The notes beneath the pieces were generated by a model that was not told where the DNA came from, did no database searches, and was given only the letters and a program-made list of their open reading frames with translations. Of a stretch of DNA of 64,000 bases, positions 4,656 through 30,090 are shown one piece after another. How positions within the stretch are numbered: position 1 is the first letter of the stretch; each line of letters starts with the position of its first letter. Source of the stretch: Costertonia aggregata. Lineage in GTDB: Bacteria > Bacteroidota > Bacteroidia > Flavobacteriales > Flavobacteriaceae. The stretch is taken from NCBI RefSeq assembly GCF_013402795.1, contig NZ_CP058595.1:1833501-1897500 (forward strand), in the 5' to 3' direction. The position numbers and the translations under genes were made by a program.

Positions 4656-5665
4656 AGATTTTCCAATTTTTGGATATTAAGTAAGACCTCGAATTCGTTT
4701 CCATTGTCCATAACGCTAAAAGTGTGCCTATTGGGATATTTAAGCCCCAATCTTTTTTTAATGTTCTCCAGCCCAACACCGCCTACGGTATCTTTTTGTA
4801 CGTTGGCTTTGCTCGTTGAATTGATGGTGGTAAAACGAAGGCCATTATCCCGAACTTCTAGAATTATCTTCGCATAGGCCTCCGGATTAGTTGCAAAATC
4901 ACCGTGTTTGATACAGTTCTCAACAATAGGGAGCAACATCATAGGCTCTATTTTTTGATTCGAGATGTCACCCAACACTTCAAATTCAATCGTTATAGGT
5001 TTCTCTTGCGTTGATCGGTAGAGTTCCAAATACTTTTTTATATGTCGTATCTCATCATTGATAAAAACCTTCTCTTTTTGACCTTCATAGATACTATATC
5101 GCAGTAAATCGGCTAGATTGAGTACCATTTTTGGTGCTTTGTCCGACTTGACAACGGTGAGCGAATAAATGTTGTTCAATGCGTTGAACAAAAAATGGGG
5201 GTTGATCTGTGCTTTTAAATACATTAATTGGGCCTCGTTATGCTCGTTTAACAACAACTGTGTTCGCTTATCCCGTTCAATACGATTTTCTAGAATGTGG
5301 AAAATCGTGCTCACCAGCATTGCAAGCATAAGTGTTACGCTTACGACACGGGCTTCCTTGTTTGCGGCACTACCGGGAATCAATGCGTAGTATTTCTCAA
5401 AATCGGGCACTACGAAATACATTTTAACACTAAAAAAAAAGATAAAGAAAATGATGGATGTCACGAAAAAGTACACATATTTTTTTTTCTCCAAATATTG
5501 GTTTACGGCCAAATGTCCATAGGCATAATAATGTAGTATCAAAATGGGTGCCATGGCCAACGTATGGCGAAGGGCATACCAAAAATCAAGGTTGTTCGCC
5601 TTAAGTACCGTTGACATGGTAAAGTAAACTGTCCATAAAAGAAAATGCAGGAGTATACGGTTCAT
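4652..5665 (-). CDS. LytS-type sensor histidine kinase
   Basis: A membrane sensor kinase of the His_kinase (PF06580) type. Starting at ATG 5665 the protein begins with a hydrophobic helix; the upstream in-frame start at 5713 adds 16 unlikely residues. About four membrane segments occupy the first 140 residues, followed by a short coiled-coil and the phospho-acceptor motif NPHFLFNALNNIYSL, then the ATPase region (ENCIKHGDF and GGVGLENIKKRL). It is the first gene of a two-gene operon with the LytTR regulator. The signal it senses is unknown. Confidence 0.92.
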   Translation of the reverse strand: MNRILLHFLLWTVYFTMSTVLKANNLDFWYALRHTLAMAPILILHYYAYGHLAVNQYLEKKKYVYFFVTSIIFFIFFFSVKMYFVVPDFEKYYALIPGSAANKEARVVSVTLMLAMLVSTIFHILENRIERDKRTQLLLNEHNEAQLMYLKAQINPHFLFNALNNIYSLTVVKSDKAPKMVLNLADLLRYSIYEGQKEKVFINDEIRHIKKYLELYRSTQEKPITIEFEVLGDISNQKIEPMMLLPIVENCIKHGDFATNPEAYAKIILEVRDNGLRFTTINSTSKANVQKDTVGGVGLENIKKRLGLKYPNRHTFSVMDNGNEFEVLLNIQKLENL

Positions 5666-5906
5666 CTTAAAAATTTCTACAGGGAAAATACTTATTTTAA
5701 CTTCGACACTCAAGGTCTTTCAACAAAGGGCTCGAATACTTCAACTAATAGTCATAAACCATCAAGAATCTGTAGATGGTTTGTGGTTTTCATATTATAC
5801 TTAGATTTTGGCAACTGGTTAGAAATTATGCGCCATAGGTTGAAAAGGTTTTCGAATGCGCTTAAAAGTACACAGATTTGCTTCATAAACCTTTAAATCT
5901 TTTAAT

Positions 5907-6635
5907 ATGAAAACTTTTAGATTAAGTCCGATTCTTTTAGGAATAGCGGTTACGGTGTTCTTCTCGTGCGACAGGGAAGAGAACAATTTTGGTGACGCGG
6001 TACAGGTAACCGAAGAAGAAGCGTTGGAACTCGTACAGACTTCCCTGACGTCCGATGCTTATGGAATGAACGTTCAGGCAGAAGATGCTTTGGCCTTGAA
6101 CAATGGGGACACCTCAAAGATCAAGTACGAGTGTGGTGTCCTTAACTCAAAATCCATGGAACGCAGTAGTGCCATTAATGCCCCCGTTAGCTTTACGCAC
6201 TCCATAGAATATCTATTTACATTAGTATGCGAAGAAGGGCAATCAAAGGCGTTCGCTATTGAATTTGATGGTAACGGCACTTACAGTTCGCCAAGGTTAC
6301 AGTCCGATGACACGATAAGCTACCAAGCGGTTTTGGGCAACATCGTTTCCTCCGAAGGTCCGTATGTGTATAATAGTTCTTTTGTGCGTGAAGGCACACA
6401 AACTACTCGTATCGCTAGTAGAACAAAGAATTTCGACAGCACACTTTCAATAGAAAGTAATGCCGTAGCCATAGATAAGGACACTAGGGAACTATTAGGA
6501 GGGTCCGCTACCTTCTCATTGCAAGGAACTTTGGGTAGTGGGGAAACCTTTAGCTATGCCGGGACCATTACCTTCAAAGGGAACGGTGCGGCAACTATCA
6601 ATATCAATGGAAACACCTATAACGTTCAGATATAA
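5907..6635 (+). CDS. lipoprotein of unknown function
   Basis: A 242-residue protein with a lipoprotein signal (FFSC, lipid on Cys20) followed by an acidic linker and a beta-rich domain whose end repeats Gly/Thr-rich strands (ATFSLQGTLGSGETFSYAG). I recognise no family. It stands alone, transcribed away from the LytS/LytTR operon. An envelope location is likely. Confidence 0.8.
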   Translation: MKTFRLSPILLGIAVTVFFSCDREENNFGDAVQVTEEEALELVQTSLTSDAYGMNVQAEDALALNNGDTSKIKYECGVLNSKSMERSSAINAPVSFTHSIEYLFTLVCEEGQSKAFAIEFDGNGTYSSPRLQSDDTISYQAVLGNIVSSEGPYVYNSSFVREGTQTTRIASRTKNFDSTLSIESNAVAIDKDTRELLGGSATFSLQGTLGSGETFSYAGTITFKGNGAATININGNTYNVQI

Positions 6636-21641: not shown

Positions 21642-23438
21642 TTAATCGTTCAGTTTCAAAACGGCCATAAACGCTTCTTGGGGCACTTCTACATTACCTA
21701 CTTGGCGCATACGTTTTTTTCCTTTTTTCTGTTTTTCAAGCAATTTACGCTTACGTGAAATATCACCGCCGTAACATTTTGCGGTAACGTCCTTTCGCAG
21801 GGCCTTAGTAGTTTCCCTAGAAATAATCTTAGCGCCGATAGCTGCCTGTATGGGAATGTCAAACTGCTGTCGGGGAATAAGCTCTTTTAATTTTTCGCAC
21901 ATCTTTTTGCCTATGGTCGTGGCGTTATCGGCATGTATCAAGGCAGAGAGGGCATCAACGGGTTGCGAATTCAATAAAATATCCACACGTACCAGTTTGG
22001 ACGTTCGCATACCGATAGGGGTGTAATCAAATGAGGCATAGCCTTTGGAAACCGTTTTTAAGCGATCATAAAAATCGAACACGATTTCTGCCAGCGGCAT
22101 ATCAAAAGTGAGTTCTACCCTATCGGTAGTCAGATACGTTTGGTTGGTAATCAAACCTCTTTTATCGATACAAAGTGACATAACATTGCCCACAAAATCG
22201 GCTTTGGTAATAATGGTCGCCTTAATATACGGTTCTTCTACACGATCTATGGTAGATGGGTCGGGAAGGTCGCTAGGGTTGTTTACGATTAAAGGGGTTT
22301 CCGGGTCTTTTCGGGTAAAGGCATGATAGCTAACGTTGGGTACGGTGGTTATCACGGTCATGTCAAATTCTCGCTCCAAACGTTCTTGTATAATCTCCAT
22401 ATGAAGCATACCCAAAAAACCACAACGAAAACCAAAACCTAGTGCCGCACTGCTCTCTGGAGCAAATACCAACGAAGCATCGTTCAACTGTAATTTTTCC
22501 ATTGAGGAACGTAGCTCTTCAAAATCTTCGGTATCAACGGGGTAAATACCGGCAAATACCATTGGTTTAACATCTTCGAAACCTGCAATGGCATTTTTTG
22601 TAGGGCTGGCGGCATCGGTTATGGTATCGCCCACTTTTACCTCACGTGCATCTTTTATACCCGTGATCAAATACCCTACATCACCTGATTTTATGCTTTG
22701 TTTGGGTTGTTGTGTTAATTTGAGCGTACCCACCTCATCGGCGAAGTAGTCTTTGTCAGTAGCTACGAATTTAATTTTTTGCCCTTTTTTTATCTCTCCG
22801 TTAATGACCCTAAAATAGGTCTCCACACCACGAAACGGGTTGTAAACCGAATCGAATACCAAAGCCTGTAACGATTCATCGGGATTACCAACGGGAGCGG
22901 GAATACGTTCTATGATAGCAGTTAAGATTTCCTCGATACCAATACCGGTTTTTGCACTGGCAGGTATTACTTCTTCCGCATCACAACCTAAAAGGTCTAC
23001 GATATCATCGGTTACTTCTTCGGGGCTTGCACTGGGCAAGTCAACTTTGTTGAGTACCGGAATAATCTCCAAGTCGTTTTCCAGGGCCAGGTATAGGTTG
23101 GATATTGTTTGCGCCTGTATGCTTTGCGCAGCGTCTACGACCAAAAGTGCGCCTTCACATGCGGCAATGGACCGTGAAACTTCGTATGAAAAATCAACAT
23201 GTCCAGGGGTGTCAATGAGATTAAGGATGTATTGCTCGCCCTTATGGGTATACTCCATTTGTATGGCATGGCTTTTAATGGTGATACCACGTTCACGTTC
23301 CAGATCCATGTTGTCCAAGAGCTGTTCTTTCTTTTCGCGATCGGTGACCGATCCGGTAAAATCCAACAAGCGGTCTGCCAAGGTACTTTTACCATGGTCT
23401 ATATGGGCAATGATACAGAAATTTCTAATATTCTTCAT
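21642..23438 (-). CDS. lepA: elongation factor 4
   Basis: A ribosome-associated GTPase that back-translocates or rescues stalled ribosomes. Start ATG 23438 gives [19 protein letters not shown], the normal beginning; the upstream start at 23468 adds 10 residues. G1 AHIDHGKS, G3 DTPGH and G4 NKVD motifs are all present, and the protein ends with the LepA C-terminal domain ([18 protein letters not shown]). 598 residues, full length. Confidence 0.97.
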
Positions 23439-23519
23439 AGCAATAAGAAGAGTGTTTTTGGAAGGCAAAGATACGTCATTTTCCCACTATTCAGCGCATA
23501 AAACCGTTGCGTTTGTTTT

Positions 23520-24689
23520 TTAGCCAGAAGAATCACTATTCAAATTAGAATGGTATGTTTTGGGGGTACAGCCATGAATTTTTTTAAATGCCCGATAAAA
23601 TGCATTCTTTGAATTGAATCCCGAGGTTTTTGACAATGCATCTACCGAGAATTGGGAAAGATACCCCTCTTGAATTTCCGAGGCGGCATATTTTATGCGC
23701 ATTTGATTGATATAGTCGTTAAAATTGCTGTAATCCGACAGACTTATAATTTGTGATATTCTTCTAGGGGATATTTGGGTGGCCTTTGATAATTCGTGCA
23801 CTGTGAGTTCAGGATTTAAAAAGGCCTCTTTTTCCCTCAAAAAAATATCGAGCACATTAAAATCGGATTCCAATTCCGTTTTTAAGGAAAGTAAATCGGT
23901 TCCGGGCGGTTTTAAGGGCAGGTTGGGCAATCCTATAAGTAATTTTGGGTTCCACAATAAATAGGCCGACACCAATAAAAAGCTGCTACTTACCAAAAAC
24001 CCTAACGGAAGATAAATATAACCCACATTGGGGATTATCCCAAAGAACAGTAAAGCATTACTCACATACAAGACCAACAAGGCCAAACTGTATATGGTTT
24101 GTATCGTGGTAAAATCGTAAATCCACTTTTTGACCAACTTGTACTGTTTTGAGACTACGGTATTGTTTTTTGTAAAGAACAAATGAATCATGCGCCATTG
24201 AAACGCCAAGTAAATTAACGAGATCAAAGCCCTGCAAAAAATATTTACCCATTCTGGCAAATGCCCATCTTGACCTGTAAAGGTTTTGCTAAAGTTTTGG
24301 CTTACCTCGTAGACCATCCTACTTTTTTCGTCCATATCCATCATGTAAAACGGAAAGTAGTTTACAGTAAAGAACAAGAAGGGGATTAGGTGTAAAACAT
24401 CTGTTTTTTTGAATGAACTCTTACCGTACAATACCGCCCTAACATATAAATATGCCAACGGGAAAATAAGGTAGGTTATAGGAGCGGGAACTTTGTATAA
24501 ATATGGGAAATGGTTTATAAGGCCATAAACTATAAAAAGATAAAAACTGTTACATAATGCATTTAAGAATAGTACCGCAGCCAGTAGATGGCCAGAAAAA
24601 CTATTGTTCTTGTTGAAACGAAATCGAATAAGAAAAGCAGTGAGAAGGCAGAAGATAACCCCCATCAAATGCAGGATGTCTATGAGCAT
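23520..24689 (-). CDS. AraC family regulator with membrane sensor domain
   Basis: A 389-residue protein. The first about 240 residues make seven or so membrane helices; the last about 100 are an AraC-type double helix-turn-helix (LTVHELSKATQISPRRISQII and FNSKNAFYRAFKKIHGCTP). This membrane-anchored architecture is common in Flavobacteriia. It stands alone and its targets are unknown. A second gene of the same architecture is at 56207. Confidence 0.88.
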   Translation of the reverse strand: MLIDILHLMGVIFCLLTAFLIRFRFNKNNSFSGHLLAAVLFLNALCNSFYLFIVYGLINHFPYLYKVPAPITYLIFPLAYLYVRAVLYGKSSFKKTDVLHLIPFLFFTVNYFPFYMMDMDEKSRMVYEVSQNFSKTFTGQDGHLPEWVNIFCRALISLIYLAFQWRMIHLFFTKNNTVVSKQYKLVKKWIYDFTTIQTIYSLALLVLYVSNALLFFGIIPNVGYIYLPLGFLVSSSFLLVSAYLLWNPKLLIGLPNLPLKPPGTDLLSLKTELESDFNVLDIFLREKEAFLNPELTVHELSKATQISPRRISQIISLSDYSNFNDYINQMRIKYAASEIQEGYLSQFSVDALSKTSGFNSKNAFYRAFKKIHGCTPKTYHSNLNSDSSG

Positions 24690-24799
24690 ACGGTCAAGTT
24701 CGGCTATTTATTTTTGGTTACAATTCCTGTAATGGTAACTACTAACGGTTCCCATATACCTAAAAATAGCGTTAATTTAAATGTTAAACAATCAGCCTG

Positions 24800-25168
24800 A
24801 TGCTAAACTTGGATTATGACAGTAACAAATTCTTGTACAAGATTCAAAAATGGGGTGCTCTAAACCAAGAGGTCAGATTTTTGTTGTTTACCGACCATAA
24901 CCTTCAAGACAAAAATAATTCCGAATTTGATTTCACGTTCATCATTATCGTGAACGACTGTTACGATTTTATACAGAAGCAGGAGTGGCTCAAATACTTT
25001 GGTACGATCGAAGAAAGTGATACAGAAGAGAATGAAGAAAATACGGTCATTACGGCGAAGTATAACAAGGGGCCGTATGTGAAATTTTCACTTTTTGATG
25101 CCGACGTCAAAAAAAAACCGAAAATTTTCGAAAAAGCTAAAATATTGGTTGAAAAGGATATTACATGA
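24800..25168 (+). CDS. short protein resembling the N-terminus of ANT(6)-type adenylyltransferases
   Basis: A 122-residue protein. Its pattern (VRFLLFTDHN, EFDFTFIIIVND, QEWLKYFGTI) follows the start of aminoglycoside 6-adenylyltransferases, where the segments read roughly xxGSR, DYDxxFFVTD and xxWxxxFG. The Gly-Ser of the catalytic loop is missing and the first Asp of the D-x-D pair is Glu, and the long C-terminal domain is absent. An inactive or re-purposed nucleotidyltransferase-fold domain is the best guess; resistance activity is not supported. It converges on a small membrane protein gene. Confidence 0.55.
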   Translation: MLNLDYDSNKFLYKIQKWGALNQEVRFLLFTDHNLQDKNNSEFDFTFIIIVNDCYDFIQKQEWLKYFGTIEESDTEENEENTVITAKYNKGPYVKFSLFDADVKKKPKIFEKAKILVEKDIT

Positions 25169-25176
25169 ACAGTTTT

Positions 25177-25386
25177 TCAATATCCGCTCATAAGCCCTCC
25201 ACAGACCCCTAAACTCACCAATAAATATACCCCTGCCAAAATATAAAATACTTTGGCCGCTTTTGGGTTCTTTTTTCTGATCAGCAAGCCAATGATAGCA
25301 AACAATAAAGCGGGACCGAACATGATCACCGCAAAGAAATATATCAAACCGTCCAAATTTCCTACTTCCAAGGGTATCGTTGTCAT
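25177..25386 (-). CDS. small two-helix membrane protein (paralogue of 27507-27713)
   Basis: 69 residues with two hydrophobic helices separated by a basic loop (RKKNPKAAKVF). It aligns with the protein at 27507-27713 across the loop and second helix (KAAKVFYILAGVYLLVS against KIGKVFFYLGLAYILFV). It is the last gene of the radical SAM operon; its ATG overlaps the stop of the radical SAM gene by 4 bases. Confidence 0.65.
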   Translation of the reverse strand: MTTIPLEVGNLDGLIYFFAVIMFGPALLFAIIGLLIRKKNPKAAKVFYILAGVYLLVSLGVCGGLMSGY

Positions 25387-26777
25387 ATAACTTCGTTTTG
25401 TAATTCTTTTAGCCTTTCAATCTTATCATCCCTATAAAATAGGTTCATGGTCTCAAATGGAATAATCTTGTAATCTTTGTTCACAATGTGTACACATGAT
25501 TTTTTAATCGCACGTACATCAAAGTTATGGGCATCGATAAATTGCATGATTATGATGCGGAAAAGATTGTCATATCCCAATTCCGGTGCATCGATTTCAG
25601 GGAGGCAGCACATGATGCTTTTTAGGTTTTCAGATGCTTTTTCAACTGAGTTACCGGTACTGAACAATTCAATCATCTTACCATGCAGTTGTTCGTCTTG
25701 CTCGTAAATAATAGTGTTTTTCCCTTCGTTCAATAAATCATCGGGATTGATGTAACGCGTTAACGGACTCACCTCGTCGCCCAATTTTAGGGCGTATGCC
25801 ATGACCAAAGCATCGGGATTACAGGGTACTGGAATCAAATCGTCCGCTTCAAAAATGGGAGATTGTTCCAAAATCTTTCGGCGTACCTCGGTAAGGGTAA
25901 TCCTATTTTCATCGACCTCAAAATTTTCCAAACGACCAGCAATTTGGGTAGGTTGAAAGGTAACACCGCGTACACATTTTTGCTTCAACGCAAAATCTAT
26001 GGTCTGGCCCATTTCATGGTCGTTCAATCCTTTTTGTAGGGTTACGACCAGGGTTGTCGATAAGTTTAGTTTGTTCAAGTGTTCCAAGGCCATTGAGCGT
26101 ATTTCGGCCAAATTTGCACCGCGTAGGGTTTGCAGCACATGATTATCCAAAGAATCAAACTGAAGGTATATTTCAAAATCAGGGGCGTAGGTTGCCAATT
26201 TTTCGGCAAAAGCAAAATCCTTGGCAATTTTTATACCGTTGGTATTCAACATTAAATGGCGAATGGGCAACGTTTTGGCATAATCCATAATCTCAAAAAA
26301 CTGCGGGTGAACCGTAGGCTCGCCGCCACTGAGTTGCACAACATCGGGTTCGCCTTCGTTCTTGACGATGACATCCAGCATTTTTTTGATTTCTTCCAAC
26401 GTTCTATGTCTGCCATAGGTAGGCGAAGACCCTGCATAACATGTAGGGCAGGTAAGGTTACAACGATCGGTTACTTCGATAACGGTCAGGCAAGAGTGCT
26501 GTTCATGGTCAGGACAAAGACCACAATCATAAGGGCATCCATAATGGGTCTTGGTATTAAAGGTTTTTGGGTACTCCGACACCTTGTTATAGTTGCGAAT
26601 GTTCTTGTAATATTCAATATCGTCAGCAATTAATACTTGGGAGCGCCCATGTTCCTTACAGTTTTTAAGCATATAGACCTTATGGTTCTCAAAGATTATC
26701 TTGGCATCCACACGCCTTAAACAATCGGGACATAGGCTGAGCGTAAAATCATAATAGGTGTAATTTCTTTCCGGCAT
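25383..26777 (-). CDS. Tes-like radical SAM protein
   Basis: A 464-residue iron-sulphur enzyme. The radical SAM cluster motif CNLTCPTC is at residues 106-113. Before it are an N-terminal Cys pair (CPDC, 16-19, with Cys40 in NCKEHG) and a second Cys group, CPYDCGLC (81-88) plus Cys96. This order matches the family of the archaeal tetraether synthase Tes (MJ0619 type), which joins lipid tails. It overlaps the Lgt-like gene upstream by 29 bases. A lipid-tail or lipid-headgroup reaction is inferred from family and neighbours; the true substrate is unknown. Confidence 0.8.
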   Translation of the reverse strand: MPERNYTYYDFTLSLCPDCLRRVDAKIIFENHKVYMLKNCKEHGRSQVLIADDIEYYKNIRNYNKVSEYPKTFNTKTHYGCPYDCGLCPDHEQHSCLTVIEVTDRCNLTCPTCYAGSSPTYGRHRTLEEIKKMLDVIVKNEGEPDVVQLSGGEPTVHPQFFEIMDYAKTLPIRHLMLNTNGIKIAKDFAFAEKLATYAPDFEIYLQFDSLDNHVLQTLRGANLAEIRSMALEHLNKLNLSTTLVVTLQKGLNDHEMGQTIDFALKQKCVRGVTFQPTQIAGRLENFEVDENRITLTEVRRKILEQSPIFEADDLIPVPCNPDALVMAYALKLGDEVSPLTRYINPDDLLNEGKNTIIYEQDEQLHGKMIELFSTGNSVEKASENLKSIMCCLPEIDAPELGYDNLFRIIIMQFIDAHNFDVRAIKKSCVHIVNKDYKIIPFETMNLFYRDDKIERLKELQNEVI

Positions 26778-27510
26778 AAAAAATTGATTTTACGATGAAT
26801 CTATGATAATATACAAAACAAATTAAGCATAAATATTGAATGCTGCTGAGGCCGAGAATCAAAAAGGTATTGGGTTTAATAAATTCAATACAAAACCGAA
26901 AGAAAAAATAAACGACCATAAAGAACTTAAAATAAGTGCCGCTTTCTGGTTGGTCAGGTCGCTTTTTAAGCCTTTTTATGAGTAGGAACAGCCCTATTAG
27001 AAACACAATTTCATACAGCGCGATAGGATGCCGATATAGGCCATCACCTAGATTTATACCTAAAATTGAAGGAGTTTCAATACCATATGTAAATTCACTT
27101 GTACCGGCAAAGAAGCAACCGACACGACCTATGCAAATGCCCAATATTATTGGCAAAGTAAACAAGTCTCCCGACGATTTTTTTTCACCTATTATTTTTT
27201 TTGAGAGTTCAACACCCAATAACCCTCCAAAAAGACCGCCCATTATCGTTTTGTTGTTCAAAATAGATACCCAGCCCTGGGCATCGTATAAAGTGGGATT
27301 TTCCAAAAAAGCGATAAGTCTAGAGAACAACAATGCTCCAAAAACAGCTCCAATAATAATGGATAACCGGCGGGTTGAAGAAATGGGATCTTCACTGCGT
27401 TTTCGTAGATATACGTAATACCGAAATGCCAAAAAGAAGGCAAGATATTCCAACACCAAATGCACGTTCAATTTTATACCGAACAGTATGGGCTCGAAGG
27501 GGATAGTCAT
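26749..27510 (-). CDS. Lgt-family membrane protein (paralogue of prolipoprotein diacylglyceryl transferase)
   Basis: 253 residues, about seven membrane helices. Lgt-family features are GRVGCFFAG (about 125-133), HPIALYE and the late FFRFCIEFIKPN segment. The position of the essential catalytic His of Lgt (SFHGG in E. coli) reads TIMGG here, so normal lipoprotein acylation is doubtful. It overlaps the Tes-like gene by 29 bases and the upstream small membrane gene by 4. It may move or bind a phosphatidylglycerol-like lipid for the radical SAM partner (inference). Confidence 0.75.
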   Translation of the reverse strand: MTIPFEPILFGIKLNVHLVLEYLAFFLAFRYYVYLRKRSEDPISSTRRLSIIIGAVFGALLFSRLIAFLENPTLYDAQGWVSILNNKTIMGGLFGGLLGVELSKKIIGEKKSSGDLFTLPIILGICIGRVGCFFAGTSEFTYGIETPSILGINLGDGLYRHPIALYEIVFLIGLFLLIKRLKKRPDQPESGTYFKFFMVVYFFFRFCIEFIKPNTFLILGLSSIQYLCLICFVYYHRFIVKSIFYAGKKLHLL

Positions 27511-27713
27511 TCCATACGTAAAATTAGAATCAAGGGAATACTAATTACGAATAGTATATAAGCCAAGCCCAAATAAAAAAACACTTTGCCGATTTTTCTT
27601 TTACCTGAAGATTTAAAGAACCAACCCAATATCAAAAAAACACCCAAAGGCGCCAGTAGTGATAGGCCTATCAAGAATAGGTCATTATCATTAAAAATAG
27701 AAATATCGGACAT
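27507..27713 (-). CDS. small two-helix membrane protein (paralogue of 25177-25386)
   Basis: 68 residues, two hydrophobic helices with a basic loop (KSSGKRKIGKVF). Its start is 8 bases from the stop of the upstream propeller lipoprotein and its stop overlaps the Lgt-like start by 4 bases, so it is inside the operon. No known family. Confidence 0.65.
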   Translation of the reverse strand: MSDISIFNDNDLFLIGLSLLAPLGVFLILGWFFKSSGKRKIGKVFFYLGLAYILFVISIPLILILRME

Positions 27714-27721
27714 AATTTAAA

Positions 27722-28831
27722 TTATTCTTGCCATTCCGCAATAAACAGATTTGTGTCTCGGGTGCCACCGTTGTTTCGGTTGCTCGAAAAAGCTAAATAT
27801 TTTCCGTCGTTAGAGAACACGGGAAAAGCGTCAAAGGTTTCGCCATGGGTAACCCGTTCTAGATTTTTACCATCGGTATCGATAAAATACAGGTTGAACG
27901 GGAATCCTTTTTCAGCTTCAAAGTTGCTGGAGAACAATATCTTCTTTCCCGAAGGATGAAAAAACGGACTCCAATTCGCATTGCCCAAAAAGGTCAATTG
28001 CCTAAGTTCGGAGCCATCGGCATTACAGATAAACAGTTCCATCTCGGTAGGTTCTACCAACCCTTCCGCTAATAAGTCCTTATATTTTTTGATTTCCTCG
28101 GGAGTTTTTGGTCGCGAAGCCCTAAAAATTAATTTTGTGCCGTCGGGAGAGAAAAAGGCACCGCCATCATATCCCAATTCGTCGGTAATTTGTTTGACAT
28201 CGGTACCGTCCAAATTCATCGTGTACAGTTCAAGGTCGCCGCTTCTATCTGAAGTGAAAACGATCTTATCACCTTTTGGGGAAACTGTGGCCTCGGCATC
28301 ATAACCCTTTTCATGGGTTAATCGGGCGGTAATGTTACCTTCCAAATCAGCTACAAAAATATCAAAGGAATCATACACCGGCCAAACGTAATTCCCGTTT
28401 TTGCGAAGCGGTACTTCAGGGCATTCTTTGTCGGCGAGGTGTGTAGAACCATAAACATAATGTTTGTTATCTGGTAAAAAATAGGCACATGTGGTACGGC
28501 CAAAACCCGTACTTATCATGGGAGGTTTTTTGCTTTTAAAATTTTCGTCAATATTCATCAAGAACATTTGGTCACATTTCATGCCCCAGTCTTCATTGTT
28601 CGATTGGAATATAATTTGCTTGTCGTCCCAACTCCAATAGGCTTCCGCATTGTCCCCGCCAAAAGTTATTTGGCGAATACTTTTAAAATGCTTTTCCTCG
28701 GGATATATCAATGTATCACTACCTGCCATCAAGGATTTTTTTTTTTCATCTTTTACGGGCTCTCGTTTTTTAGGCTCGGTTTTACAACTTTCAAAAAGAA
28801 ATAGAAGGACAAAAACAAAAAGAATTCTCAT
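27722..28831 (-). CDS. TolB-like propeller lipoprotein
   Basis: 369 residues with lipoprotein signal FESC, then about six PD40/WD40-like blades (SPKGDKIVFTSDRSGDLELY, SPDGTKLIFRAS, HPSGKKILFSSN, SNDGKYLAFSSN) as in TolB. It is probably periplasmic or surface attached and protein binding. It is the first gene of the five-gene operon that includes the Lgt-like and radical SAM genes, and shares a 32-base divergent promoter region with an M28 peptidase. Confidence 0.85.
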   Translation of the reverse strand: MRILFVFVLLFLFESCKTEPKKREPVKDEKKKSLMAGSDTLIYPEEKHFKSIRQITFGGDNAEAYWSWDDKQIIFQSNNEDWGMKCDQMFLMNIDENFKSKKPPMISTGFGRTTCAYFLPDNKHYVYGSTHLADKECPEVPLRKNGNYVWPVYDSFDIFVADLEGNITARLTHEKGYDAEATVSPKGDKIVFTSDRSGDLELYTMNLDGTDVKQITDELGYDGGAFFSPDGTKLIFRASRPKTPEEIKKYKDLLAEGLVEPTEMELFICNADGSELRQLTFLGNANWSPFFHPSGKKILFSSNFEAEKGFPFNLYFIDTDGKNLERVTHGETFDAFPVFSNDGKYLAFSSNRNNGGTRDTNLFIAEWQE

Positions 28832-28839
28832 TTGATCTG

Positions 28840-28857
28840 TATTTTTACGTAAAAATA
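28840..28857. promoter_or_regulatory. 18-bp perfect palindrome in a divergent promoter region
   Basis: TATTTTTACGTAAAAATA reads the same on both strands and fills most of the 32-base gap between the divergent TolB-like and M28 genes. Each strand carries a TATTTTTA box pointing to its own gene, as seen alone before 2598 and 19492, so the two promoters overlap face to face and only one polymerase could bind at a time (inference). Confidence 0.5.
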
Positions 28858-28863
28858 AAGGCT

Positions 28864-30090
28864 ATGCTGCGTAATTTGATGATTTTGGCTATAATTTTTA
28901 CGGGGTTGTATTCCTGTAAGATGGATAAACCTAAAAAGATTTCTCTAGAGGAAGATATTGCATTTTTGGCCAACGATAGTTTGGCCGGTAGGGAAACGGG
29001 CACTCCCGAAGAGCTTATCGCCGCCGAGTATCTGCAAAAAAGGATGCAAGCTATTGGTTTGATGCCCAAGGGAAATGCAGGAACATATTTTCAGACATTT
29101 ACCTTTACACCAAAGAGCGACCCCCATGCCGAAGTACAATTTGTTACGGGAGATAGCACAATAACAGGCACCAATGTCGTAGGCTACATTGACAACAAAG
29201 CGGAAAAAACAGTAATTATAGGTGCGCATTACGACCATTTGGGTATGGGTGGCCAAGGTTCATTGTATACAGAGGGAGCAGCCGTTCACAACGGGGCCGA
29301 TGATAATGCAAGTGGTGTTGGCATTATGTTGAAACTTGCTGAAAGCCTAAAAGATTCGATCAAGGGAAGCAATTATGTTTTTATTGCGTTTTCGGGCGAA
29401 GAAATGGGATTGCTGGGGAGCAATTACTTTTTAAAAAACCCTACGGTCAATTTGGAAAATGCGAATTATATGATCAATCTGGATATGGTAGGTAGACTTC
29501 GCGAAGACAAGACTCTCTCAATTAGCGGAGTTGGCACAGCACCTATCTGGAAACAGGTGCTAAATGCTACCAATCCCGGGTTCAAGTTAGTCTTGGGCGA
29601 ATCGGGCATAGGTCCTAGCGACCACACTTCTTTTTACTTACAGAACATTCCCGCCTTACATTTTTTCACGGGCCAACATGAAGATTACCATAAACCTTCC
29701 GATGATTTTGAAAAATTGAATTATGAAGGCATGCGAATGATAGGCGAGTATATTTTGAGTCTCATTGCAGAATTGGATGATGATAAAAAGTTGACCTTTA
29801 GAACCACGAAAAATGAAAGCGAGGACGTTCCCCGCTTTAAAGTGGCGTTGGGTGTAATGCCCGATTATCTTTTTGACGGAAAGGGTATGCGTATAGATGG
29901 CGTGACCCAAGGTCGGCCGGCCGCTGCTGCCGGTCTTCAAAAAGGGGATATTGTAGTTAAGCTAGGCGATAGTACGGTAGTTGATATGATGAGCTACATG
30001 AGGGCACTTTCCAGCTTTGAGGAAGGTAATTCCGCAAAAGTTGTGGTCGATAGAAAAGGAGAGAAAGTATCGGTCGAGGTAGTGTTTTGA
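28864..30090 (+). CDS. M28 family zinc peptidase with PDZ domain
   Basis: 408 residues with lipoprotein signal (LYSC). The M28 core has the metal-binding residues in GAHYDHLG, NGADDNASG, GEEMGLLGS, and a late His in HFFTGQHEDYH. A PDZ domain follows (about residues 310-408, GVTQGRPAAAAGLQKGDIVVKLG). It is probably an envelope aminopeptidase. Single gene, divergent from the radical SAM operon. Confidence 0.92.
   Translation: MLRNLMILAIIFTGLYSCKMDKPKKISLEEDIAFLANDSLAGRETGTPEELIAAEYLQKRMQAIGLMPKGNAGTYFQTFTFTPKSDPHAEVQFVTGDSTITGTNVVGYIDNKAEKTVIIGAHYDHLGMGGQGSLYTEGAAVHNGADDNASGVGIMLKLAESLKDSIKGSNYVFIAFSGEEMGLLGSNYFLKNPTVNLENANYMINLDMVGRLREDKTLSISGVGTAPIWKQVLNATNPGFKLVLGESGIGPSDHTSFYLQNIPALHFFTGQHEDYHKPSDDFEKLNYEGMRMIGEYILSLIAELDDDKKLTFRTTKNESEDVPRFKVALGVMPDYLFDGKGMRIDGVTQGRPAAAAGLQKGDIVVKLGDSTVVDMMSYMRALSSFEEGNSAKVVVDRKGEKVSVEVVF

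Follow-up and report, generated by a model that had tools for sequence, protein, structure and literature searches.

The window analysed here, a stretch of 64,000 nucleotides of the Flavobacteriaceae member Costertonia aggregata (RefSeq GCF_013402795.1, NZ_CP058595.1, positions 1,833,501 to 1,897,500), is part of a 3.9-Mb single-contig genome. It carries a run of five genes on the minus strand whose ends overlap or almost abut, just where a first-pass annotation made from the sequence alone had placed them (Table 1). At the centre are LgtL, a paralogue of Lgt, and rSAM, a radical S-adenosylmethionine (SAM) enzyme related to the archaeal tetraether synthase Tes. These two genes overlap by 29 nt, and overlaps of 4 nt join rSAM to the small gene sm2 and LgtL to the small gene sm1. 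There is good support for a conserved unit in which LgtL and rSAM are joined by tiny membrane proteins, one to four in number, that have a cysteine (Cys) close to the C-terminus. The first-pass annotation did not recognise the Cys-tailed small protein as the likely protein substrate, and the unit is both smaller and more widespread than was supposed there.

Table 1. Genes of the run, with positions in the window
Gene	Position	Strand	Description or basis of assignment
sm2	25177..25386	-	69-aa two-helix membrane protein; Cys62 and 7-residue tail (LGVC-GGLMSGY); predicted substrate
rSAM, Tes/TrsS-like radical SAM enzyme	25383..26777	-	Family and structure searches, tree, alignment
LgtL, Lgt-family paralogue	26749..27510	-	Pfam, AlphaFold2 model, alignment
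sm1	27507..27713	-	68-aa two-helix protein, similar in build to sm2, no tail Cys
TolB-like beta-propeller lipoprotein	27722..28831	-	Co-directional neighbour, outside the conserved unit

Conservation and distribution of the unit

Among 199 genomes of the family, a full or nearly full rSAM orthologue (at least 78% identity) occurs in 24, the host included. LgtL adjoins rSAM wherever the locus is long enough (L016 shows the LgtL end only, and in L026 the contig stops first), and one to four small hydrophobic genes come after rSAM. The module decays in some relatives. One genome, G072, holds rSAM fragments and another, G152, a short piece of the rSAM tail. The first remnant (L169, about 5600–6050) consists of fragments of rSAM and sm2; in the second (L170, about 5800–6200) LgtL residues 2–32 and rSAM residues 438–463 are found beside an intact small Cys-tail gene.

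The TolB-like gene had been counted in the unit. It was dropped after the neighbourhoods of the family loci were compared, as it adjoins LgtL in the host genome and L009 only (these loci extend about 0.8 kb past LgtL). sm1 had been taken for a second copy of sm2. sm2 is present as a single copy, a search of the host genome with it giving no second match, and sm1 has no tail Cys; the idea of sm1 as a Cys-less sm2 paralogue was dropped on the result of that search. By eye, no sm1-like gene was recognised among the upstream open reading frames (ORFs) of at least 40 aa in the loci of relatives, and sm1 is not seen as a conserved part of the unit.

A draw of 395 genomes from the phylum was searched with limits of our own choosing (profile E ≤ 1e-20 for rSAM and E ≤ 1e-35 for LgtL). 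rSAM is present in 34, LgtL in 32 and both in 31. The rSAM-only genomes are G261 and G489, with Tes-like proteins and 15–16 kb of locus free of any LGT gene, and G291, which has a diverged LGT gene next door. In the 27 phylum loci (L034–L060), LgtL is inside the 1.5-kb flank in 24; in G555 it is just past the flank, and in G230 and G460 it is on a different contig from rSAM. That the two genes are retained together in G230 and G460, though on separate contigs, means that their link exceeds adjacency. Over 69 loci the distances between LgtL proteins and between rSAM proteins correlate with r 0.89 (the maximum in 500 permutations is 0.24), a figure in which coupling and shared descent are not separated.

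A pattern scan of 84,980 species genomes gave at least 587 matches and at least 584 relatives. The best 80 of the latter and ten further loci were examined, and 82 of these 90 have an LGT gene in the same orientation as rSAM and no more than 5 kb from it. None was found in L081, L114, L115, L116, L121, L123, L144 and L152, of which L114, L121, L123 and L144 begin just before the rSAM gene. A small ORF with a tail Cys is found in 68 of the 90 by a filter, which can also admit false ORFs, and in 77 after the 22 misses were read by eye (this added L064, L103, L106, L133, L141, L143, L150, L163 and L164). The full trio occurs in Bacteroidota, Bacillota (Paenibacillus, Fictibacillus), Cyanobacteriota, Elusimicrobiota, Acidobacteriota, Myxococcota and Actinomycetota, among others, many of the records behind this breadth being metagenome bins. 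In Actinomycetota the records are of plasmids, from Mycobacterium branderi, M. avium and Nonomuraea (L162, L163, L164), and the small proteins end CTGLNPxxY or CTGINPxxY.

LGT-family genes are also found on two contigs binned as archaeal (L080, L150), which may be mis-binned; archaea are described as having no Lgt (PMC13251419; papers are cited here by PMC number). L061, L062 and L077–L080 form a more distant clade that is likewise LGT-associated. Between its rSAM and LGT genes L062 encodes an ICMT-like methyltransferase and a DUF4395 protein (by Pfam), L061 looks alike by eye, and L078–L080 have ORFs with DUF4395-like tails. The methyltransferase and DUF4395 protein of L061 and L062 might possibly carry out a further step on a lipidated Cys.

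The module is near lepA and an M28 peptidase gene (21642–30090), and near one of the two in many relatives, i.e. it occupies a shared chromosomal spot. Beside it, on the plus strand at 24800–25168, is an ORF of 122 aa that is similar to AadS-type aminoglycoside adenylyltransferases in their N-terminal portion. At 23 bits against a cut-off of 450 and a model length of 284, it is a short distant relative or a fragment.

The two enzymes

That LgtL is an Lgt-family protein without the catalytic His, as first annotated from its TIMGG motif, is correct: Pfam PF01790 scores 82.9 bits against a gathering threshold of 24.9, and the position of His103 (E. coli Lgt numbering) is Met. The score for the Lgt equivalog model TIGR00544, 42 bits, is below the cut-off of 118.9. 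An AlphaFold2 model (mean predicted local distance difference test score, pLDDT, 80.5) has a sole structure match at E < 0.001, and this is E. coli Lgt, 5azb (E 1.8e-4, template-modelling (TM) score 0.55). A canonical Lgt is encoded elsewhere in the host genome, with the His kept and motifs SHGA and RLGN. The window LgtL keeps Arg143 (R129), Arg239 (R205) and Gly154, and has Cys for Asn146 and His for Tyr26 (H17). It thus lacks part of the set described as essential in E. coli Lgt (Y26, H103, R143, N146, G154, R239; PMC13251419), its residues being H at 26, M at 103 and C at 146.

The same pattern holds when 98 LGT paralogues from module loci are placed in an alignment with E. coli Lgt. All 98 have Arg143, Arg239, Glu202, Tyr235, Gly142 and Gly154, position 243 is always E or D and position 246 always K or R. 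His103 is present in none (V in 36, M in 33, A in 11, L in 9, I in 7 and T in 2), nor is Glu151. Asn146 is replaced by Cys in 97 and Tyr26 by His in 90. Changes of H103, R143 or R239 made E. coli Lgt fail complementation (PMC4728403). H103Q is elsewhere described as retaining some growth and as milder than H103A (PMC13251419). Lgt of Firmicutes and Actinobacteria has Y or W at 103, with Y, W or F across other bacteria, and distant Lgt homologues have C for N146 (PMC13251419). Given the Y or W in Firmicutes and Actinobacteria, an enzyme without His103 need not be dead; with such variation, and the Arg pair of LgtL invariant, the equation of His103 loss with loss of function was dropped. Retention of the Arg pair, for which lipid activation is proposed, together with change in the HGGL region, for which acceptor-peptide binding is proposed, would fit a new acceptor.

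The best solved match of rSAM is the tetraether synthase MJ0619 (GDGT-MAS; 7TOL, E 1.2e-70), and a profile of the rSAM family matches MJ0619 over its full length (E 1.3e-132). The AlphaFold2 model (pLDDT 85.2, residues 369–399 below 50) superposes on 7TOM and 7TOL with a TM score of 0.81. The Tes layout of cysteines that had been noted is there in its N-terminal part: the hallmark motifs of Tes are all present, namely the rubredoxin-type site (C16/C19/C40/H43), the N-cluster CxxxCxxC with its His (C81/C85/C88/H91) and the radical SAM CX3CX2C (C106/C110/C113). Further cysteines of the window protein are C96, C319 and C428. The layout does not extend to the C-terminal cluster region, where Cys455, Cys456, Tyr459, Cys470 and the labile Met439 of MJ0619 are matched by S, C, I, E and M. 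Candidate ligands of this cluster in rSAM are Cys319, Cys428 and Cys390/391.

How general these differences are was counted over 48 LGT-associated rows, i.e. all aligned rows except those of Tes and of haloarchaea and Mycolicibacterium, and over three Tes rows including MJ0619. (No LGT gene is seen in the loci of L081, L114, L115, L116, L121, L144 and L152, and the LGT gene of L047 is on another contig; all are counted as LGT-associated. L065, called Tes-like here, is without the N-cluster Cys.) Cys96 and Cys319 are present in 48/48 LGT-associated rows and 0/3 Tes rows, Tyr at the Tyr459 position in 0/48 and 3/3, and Cys428 in all rows of both sets. In 45 of the 48 the Cys470 position is E, D or S, and in 45 the Cys455 position is S, E or T. 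Met439 has a Met counterpart in 30, and among the Tes rows in MJ0619 only; Cys390 and Cys391 are each found in 39. The rubredoxin-type and radical SAM residues are as in Tes, and the N-cluster residues are present in 46/48 (Tes 2/3). Loss of Tyr459 was at first a candidate for a decisive difference. As Y459F and Y459L of MJ0619 remain active (PMC9433317), its loss alone is weak evidence, and it was dropped as such. The four haloarchaeal and Mycolicibacterium rows combine Cys96 and Cys319 with Tes-type Cys455 and Cys470. They come from plasmids (L157, L158, L160, L161) with a methyltransferase gene beside and redox genes near, and no LGT gene within the locus.

The membership of rSAM in Tes does not hold. 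Its position relative to the Tes clade had been set beforehand as the refuting test, and it is outside: in a careful tree of 44 of the 55 rows, MJ0619 and L063, the two Tes rows in it, are apart from the other 42 with support 100/98. Of the rest, 39 LGT-associated rows are set off together by a branch with support 95/82, and the haloarchaeal and Mycolicibacterium rows fall between these and Tes. (Omitted were L014, L064, L065, L081, L084, L090, L115, L151, L152, L161 and L162.) A quick tree of all 55 rows, L065 included, also splits Tes from the LGT-associated rows and has the haloarchaeal rows on the Tes side. Both trees gave long-branch warnings, MJ0619 is partial in them and their root is not known. 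The NCBIfam Tes model NF045702 gives rSAM 292 bits against a cut-off of 450; L063 (494) alone among the proteins scanned passes it, L065 reaching 442. Cys455, Tyr459 and Cys470 of MJ0619 are, as noted, absent.

The tail cysteine and its possible lipidation

In the 24 family loci a length and hydropathy filter yields 41 small ORFs, five of which (L007_3291, L009_3077, L014_3425, L019_3342, L026_1682) were judged from the alignment to be spurious. The tail Cys is kept in all 36 copies judged real, 2–12 residues from the C-terminus, and its column is the most conserved over the 41 rows, whose mean pairwise identity is 0.36. In the wider set, a Cys is present in the last 20 residues of 97/110 small hydrophobic operon ORFs and of 36/90 hydrophobic ORFs from other parts of these loci. 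For the motif [GSA]xC, with a small residue at −2 and a defined set at −1, the counts are 84/110 and 2/90 respectively. Both comparisons are supportive only, as the control consists of ORFs without annotation, most likely including many that are no genes, and the motif was drawn from the same set. Between lineages the small proteins look unlike, by eye, except for the Cys and a Gly/Ser-rich setting.

Beyond the Cys, the tail has 1–15 residues (5–11 in 78/97). The 15 residues before the last helix have on average 3.0 K or R, and the tail 0.4; charge is more positive before the helix than in the tail in 82/97, with the reverse in 4/97. By the positive-inside rule, positively charged flanks stay on the cytosolic side of the membrane. 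From this distribution of charge we infer that the last helix has the tail Cys at its periplasmic end. The residue preceding it is often T, I or V, which makes cleavage by signal peptidase II unlikely. The NCBIfam 'lipo-invert' tail model (NF058595) matches sm2 at 14.3 bits (cut-off 37, E 0.04). This was set aside as noise, since three other places in the host genome outscore sm2 and all 14 control genomes have matches below the cut-off.

The explanation favoured here, tentatively and with a probability somewhat short of even, is that LgtL lipidates the tail Cys of the small protein with a glycerolipid, making an inverted lipoprotein, and that rSAM alters lipid chains. The last helix of the small protein would imitate a lipoprotein signal peptide, with a positive n-region, a hydrophobic core and the Cys on the outer face. 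LgtL would transfer diacylglyceryl from phospholipid to this Cys, and the product would be a small membrane protein bearing lipid close to the C-terminus; the His at position 26 of LgtL may replace His103. More weakly, rSAM, presumed to be on the cytosolic side as is supposed for Tes, might activate the end of an acyl chain and then join or otherwise alter the chains of the anchor lipid or of adjacent membrane lipids. In solved structures Lgt binds two glycerolipids (PMC4728403), as does GDGT-MAS MJ0619 (PMC9433317), and it is for this reason that lipid is favoured for both steps. Of the uncharacterised lipid modification suggested at first, a lipid-directed function is supported, since two families with glycerolipid-binding members stay together over many phyla. 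Tes membership is not, and joining of acyl chains by rSAM is no more than possible. A bolder form is unlikely. In it rSAM would couple the acyl chains of the anchor to each other or to lipids nearby, to give a membrane-spanning, protein-linked lipid, and the lipid-coupling enzymes would be a large family, bacterial for the most part, of which archaeal Tes is a single branch.

Several observations weigh against lipidation of the tail Cys by LgtL. None of the substitutions H103A, N, Q, R or Y permitted complementation by Lgt in E. coli (PMC4728403). Of the 97 tail-Cys proteins only 27 fit a PROSITE-like lipobox pattern, because the small residue is at −2 and not −1; sm2 of the window, with Val at −1 (LGVC), is among those that do not fit. 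A cytosolic rSAM would not easily reach a periplasmic tail Cys. Exceptions to co-occurrence count on the same side: in the phylum draw G215 has LgtL without rSAM, no tail-Cys protein was found near LgtL or rSAM of G230, and L115 has rSAM and a tail-Cys protein with no LGT gene in the locus. A tail-Cys protein is missing in 13 of the 90 loci (L081, L084, L093, L101, L114, L116, L118, L120, L132, L136, L144, L152, L154). Of these, L081, L116, L118 and L152 end about 0.3 kb or less after the rSAM gene, and four alphaproteobacterial loci, L101, L114, L120 and L136, are probably genuine exceptions. In L114 and L120 a small membrane protein has an internal GC motif instead.

That the tiny proteins occur next to a radical SAM enzyme, in tandem and in varying copy number, would also suit a reading in which rSAM modifies the small protein itself, at the tail Cys or a Gly for instance, as in ribosomally synthesised and post-translationally modified peptides (RiPPs), with LgtL lipidating or presenting it; RiPPs lipidated via the ordinary Lgt pathway exist (PMC12636315). 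This is improbable: the nearest solved relative of rSAM is a lipid enzyme, with peptide maturases such as SkfB far behind, the Cys is predicted to be periplasmic, and the small proteins have little in common between lineages save the Cys and its setting. That both enzyme families bind glycerolipids (PMC9433317, PMC4728403) would suit an alteration of bulk membrane lipids, the idea of the first-pass annotation, in which LgtL would bind or split phospholipid, rSAM join acyl chains and the small proteins be structural helpers. The Met at the Met439 position in 30/48 rows also suits it. Such an explanation is no likelier than modification of the small protein by rSAM, as it leaves the tail Cys of otherwise diverged proteins unexplained, and rSAM, whose C-terminal cluster region is changed, does not group with Tes.

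A Cys by itself is not proof of lipidation. It could be a redox or metal site, the small proteins being membrane partners of a redox system and LgtL a scaffold, and the haloarchaeal and Mycolicibacterium relatives of rSAM do have redox and methyltransferase genes near. However, these relatives are without an LGT gene in the locus and fall outside the LGT-associated set, the position of the Cys suits an Lgt acceptor, and the Arg pair of LgtL is kept in 98/98, all of which makes this the least likely of the alternatives and very doubtful. Lipidation of the tail Cys by LgtL would, if it occurs, give Lgt chemistry a second acceptor geometry and represent an unstudied route for attaching lipid at a protein's tail end.

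Comparison with known systems

Zeng et al. reported 456 bacterial homologues of Tes and suggested synthesis of branched glycerol dialkyl glycerol tetraethers (brGDGTs; PMC8941075), and the GDGT-MAS paper notes homologues in bacteria from which synthesis of biphytanyl chains is not known (PMC9433317). A large set of such homologues now gains conserved partners and a testable substrate. A Tes-like match in a genome is alone no evidence for membrane-spanning lipids, which matters for the assignment of brGDGT producers. A literature search, in which few subscription papers were covered, found no published description of an Lgt paralogue together with a Tes-like enzyme and tail-Cys proteins.

Lgt itself (5AZB) and LgtL share family and fold, Arg143, Arg239, Glu202, Tyr235 and Gly154, and a Glu or Asp at 243. 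LgtL differs in being without His103, in its Cys at 146 and His at 26, and in being a second gene besides canonical Lgt; its predicted acceptor is a C-terminal Cys whereas that of Lgt is N-terminal. MSMEG_5408, a second Lgt homologue in M. smegmatis with a presumed low Lgt activity, has Y26H and N146C (PMC13251419), as do most LgtL proteins.

Between Tes/GDGT-MAS (MJ0619, 7TOL) and rSAM there is homology over the full length, with the rubredoxin-type site, the N-cluster with its His and the radical SAM cluster residues in common. rSAM belongs to a separate clade, has the extra Cys96 and Cys319 and changes at the Cys455, Tyr459 and Cys470 positions, and is adjoined by LGT genes. The best-scoring curated model for it is that of the TrsS radical SAM (seleno)protein (NF045646), yet its 330 bits are below the equivalog cut-off of 490, which none of the proteins scanned reaches; no true TrsS was encountered. 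The one paper found that names TrsS, PMC13188914, has it only as a table entry.

A parallel for what is proposed for sm2 is provided by the diacylglycerol (DAG)-RiPPs, small gene-encoded peptides in which a Cys receives diacylglycerol (PMC12636315). The terms 'radical SAM' and 'paralog' are absent from the text of that paper. DAG-RiPPs are made with an MNIO enzyme and by the usual lipoprotein pathway, which acts at the N-terminus (PMC12636315), and in these respects are unlike the module, in which the lipid would be received at the other end of the protein.

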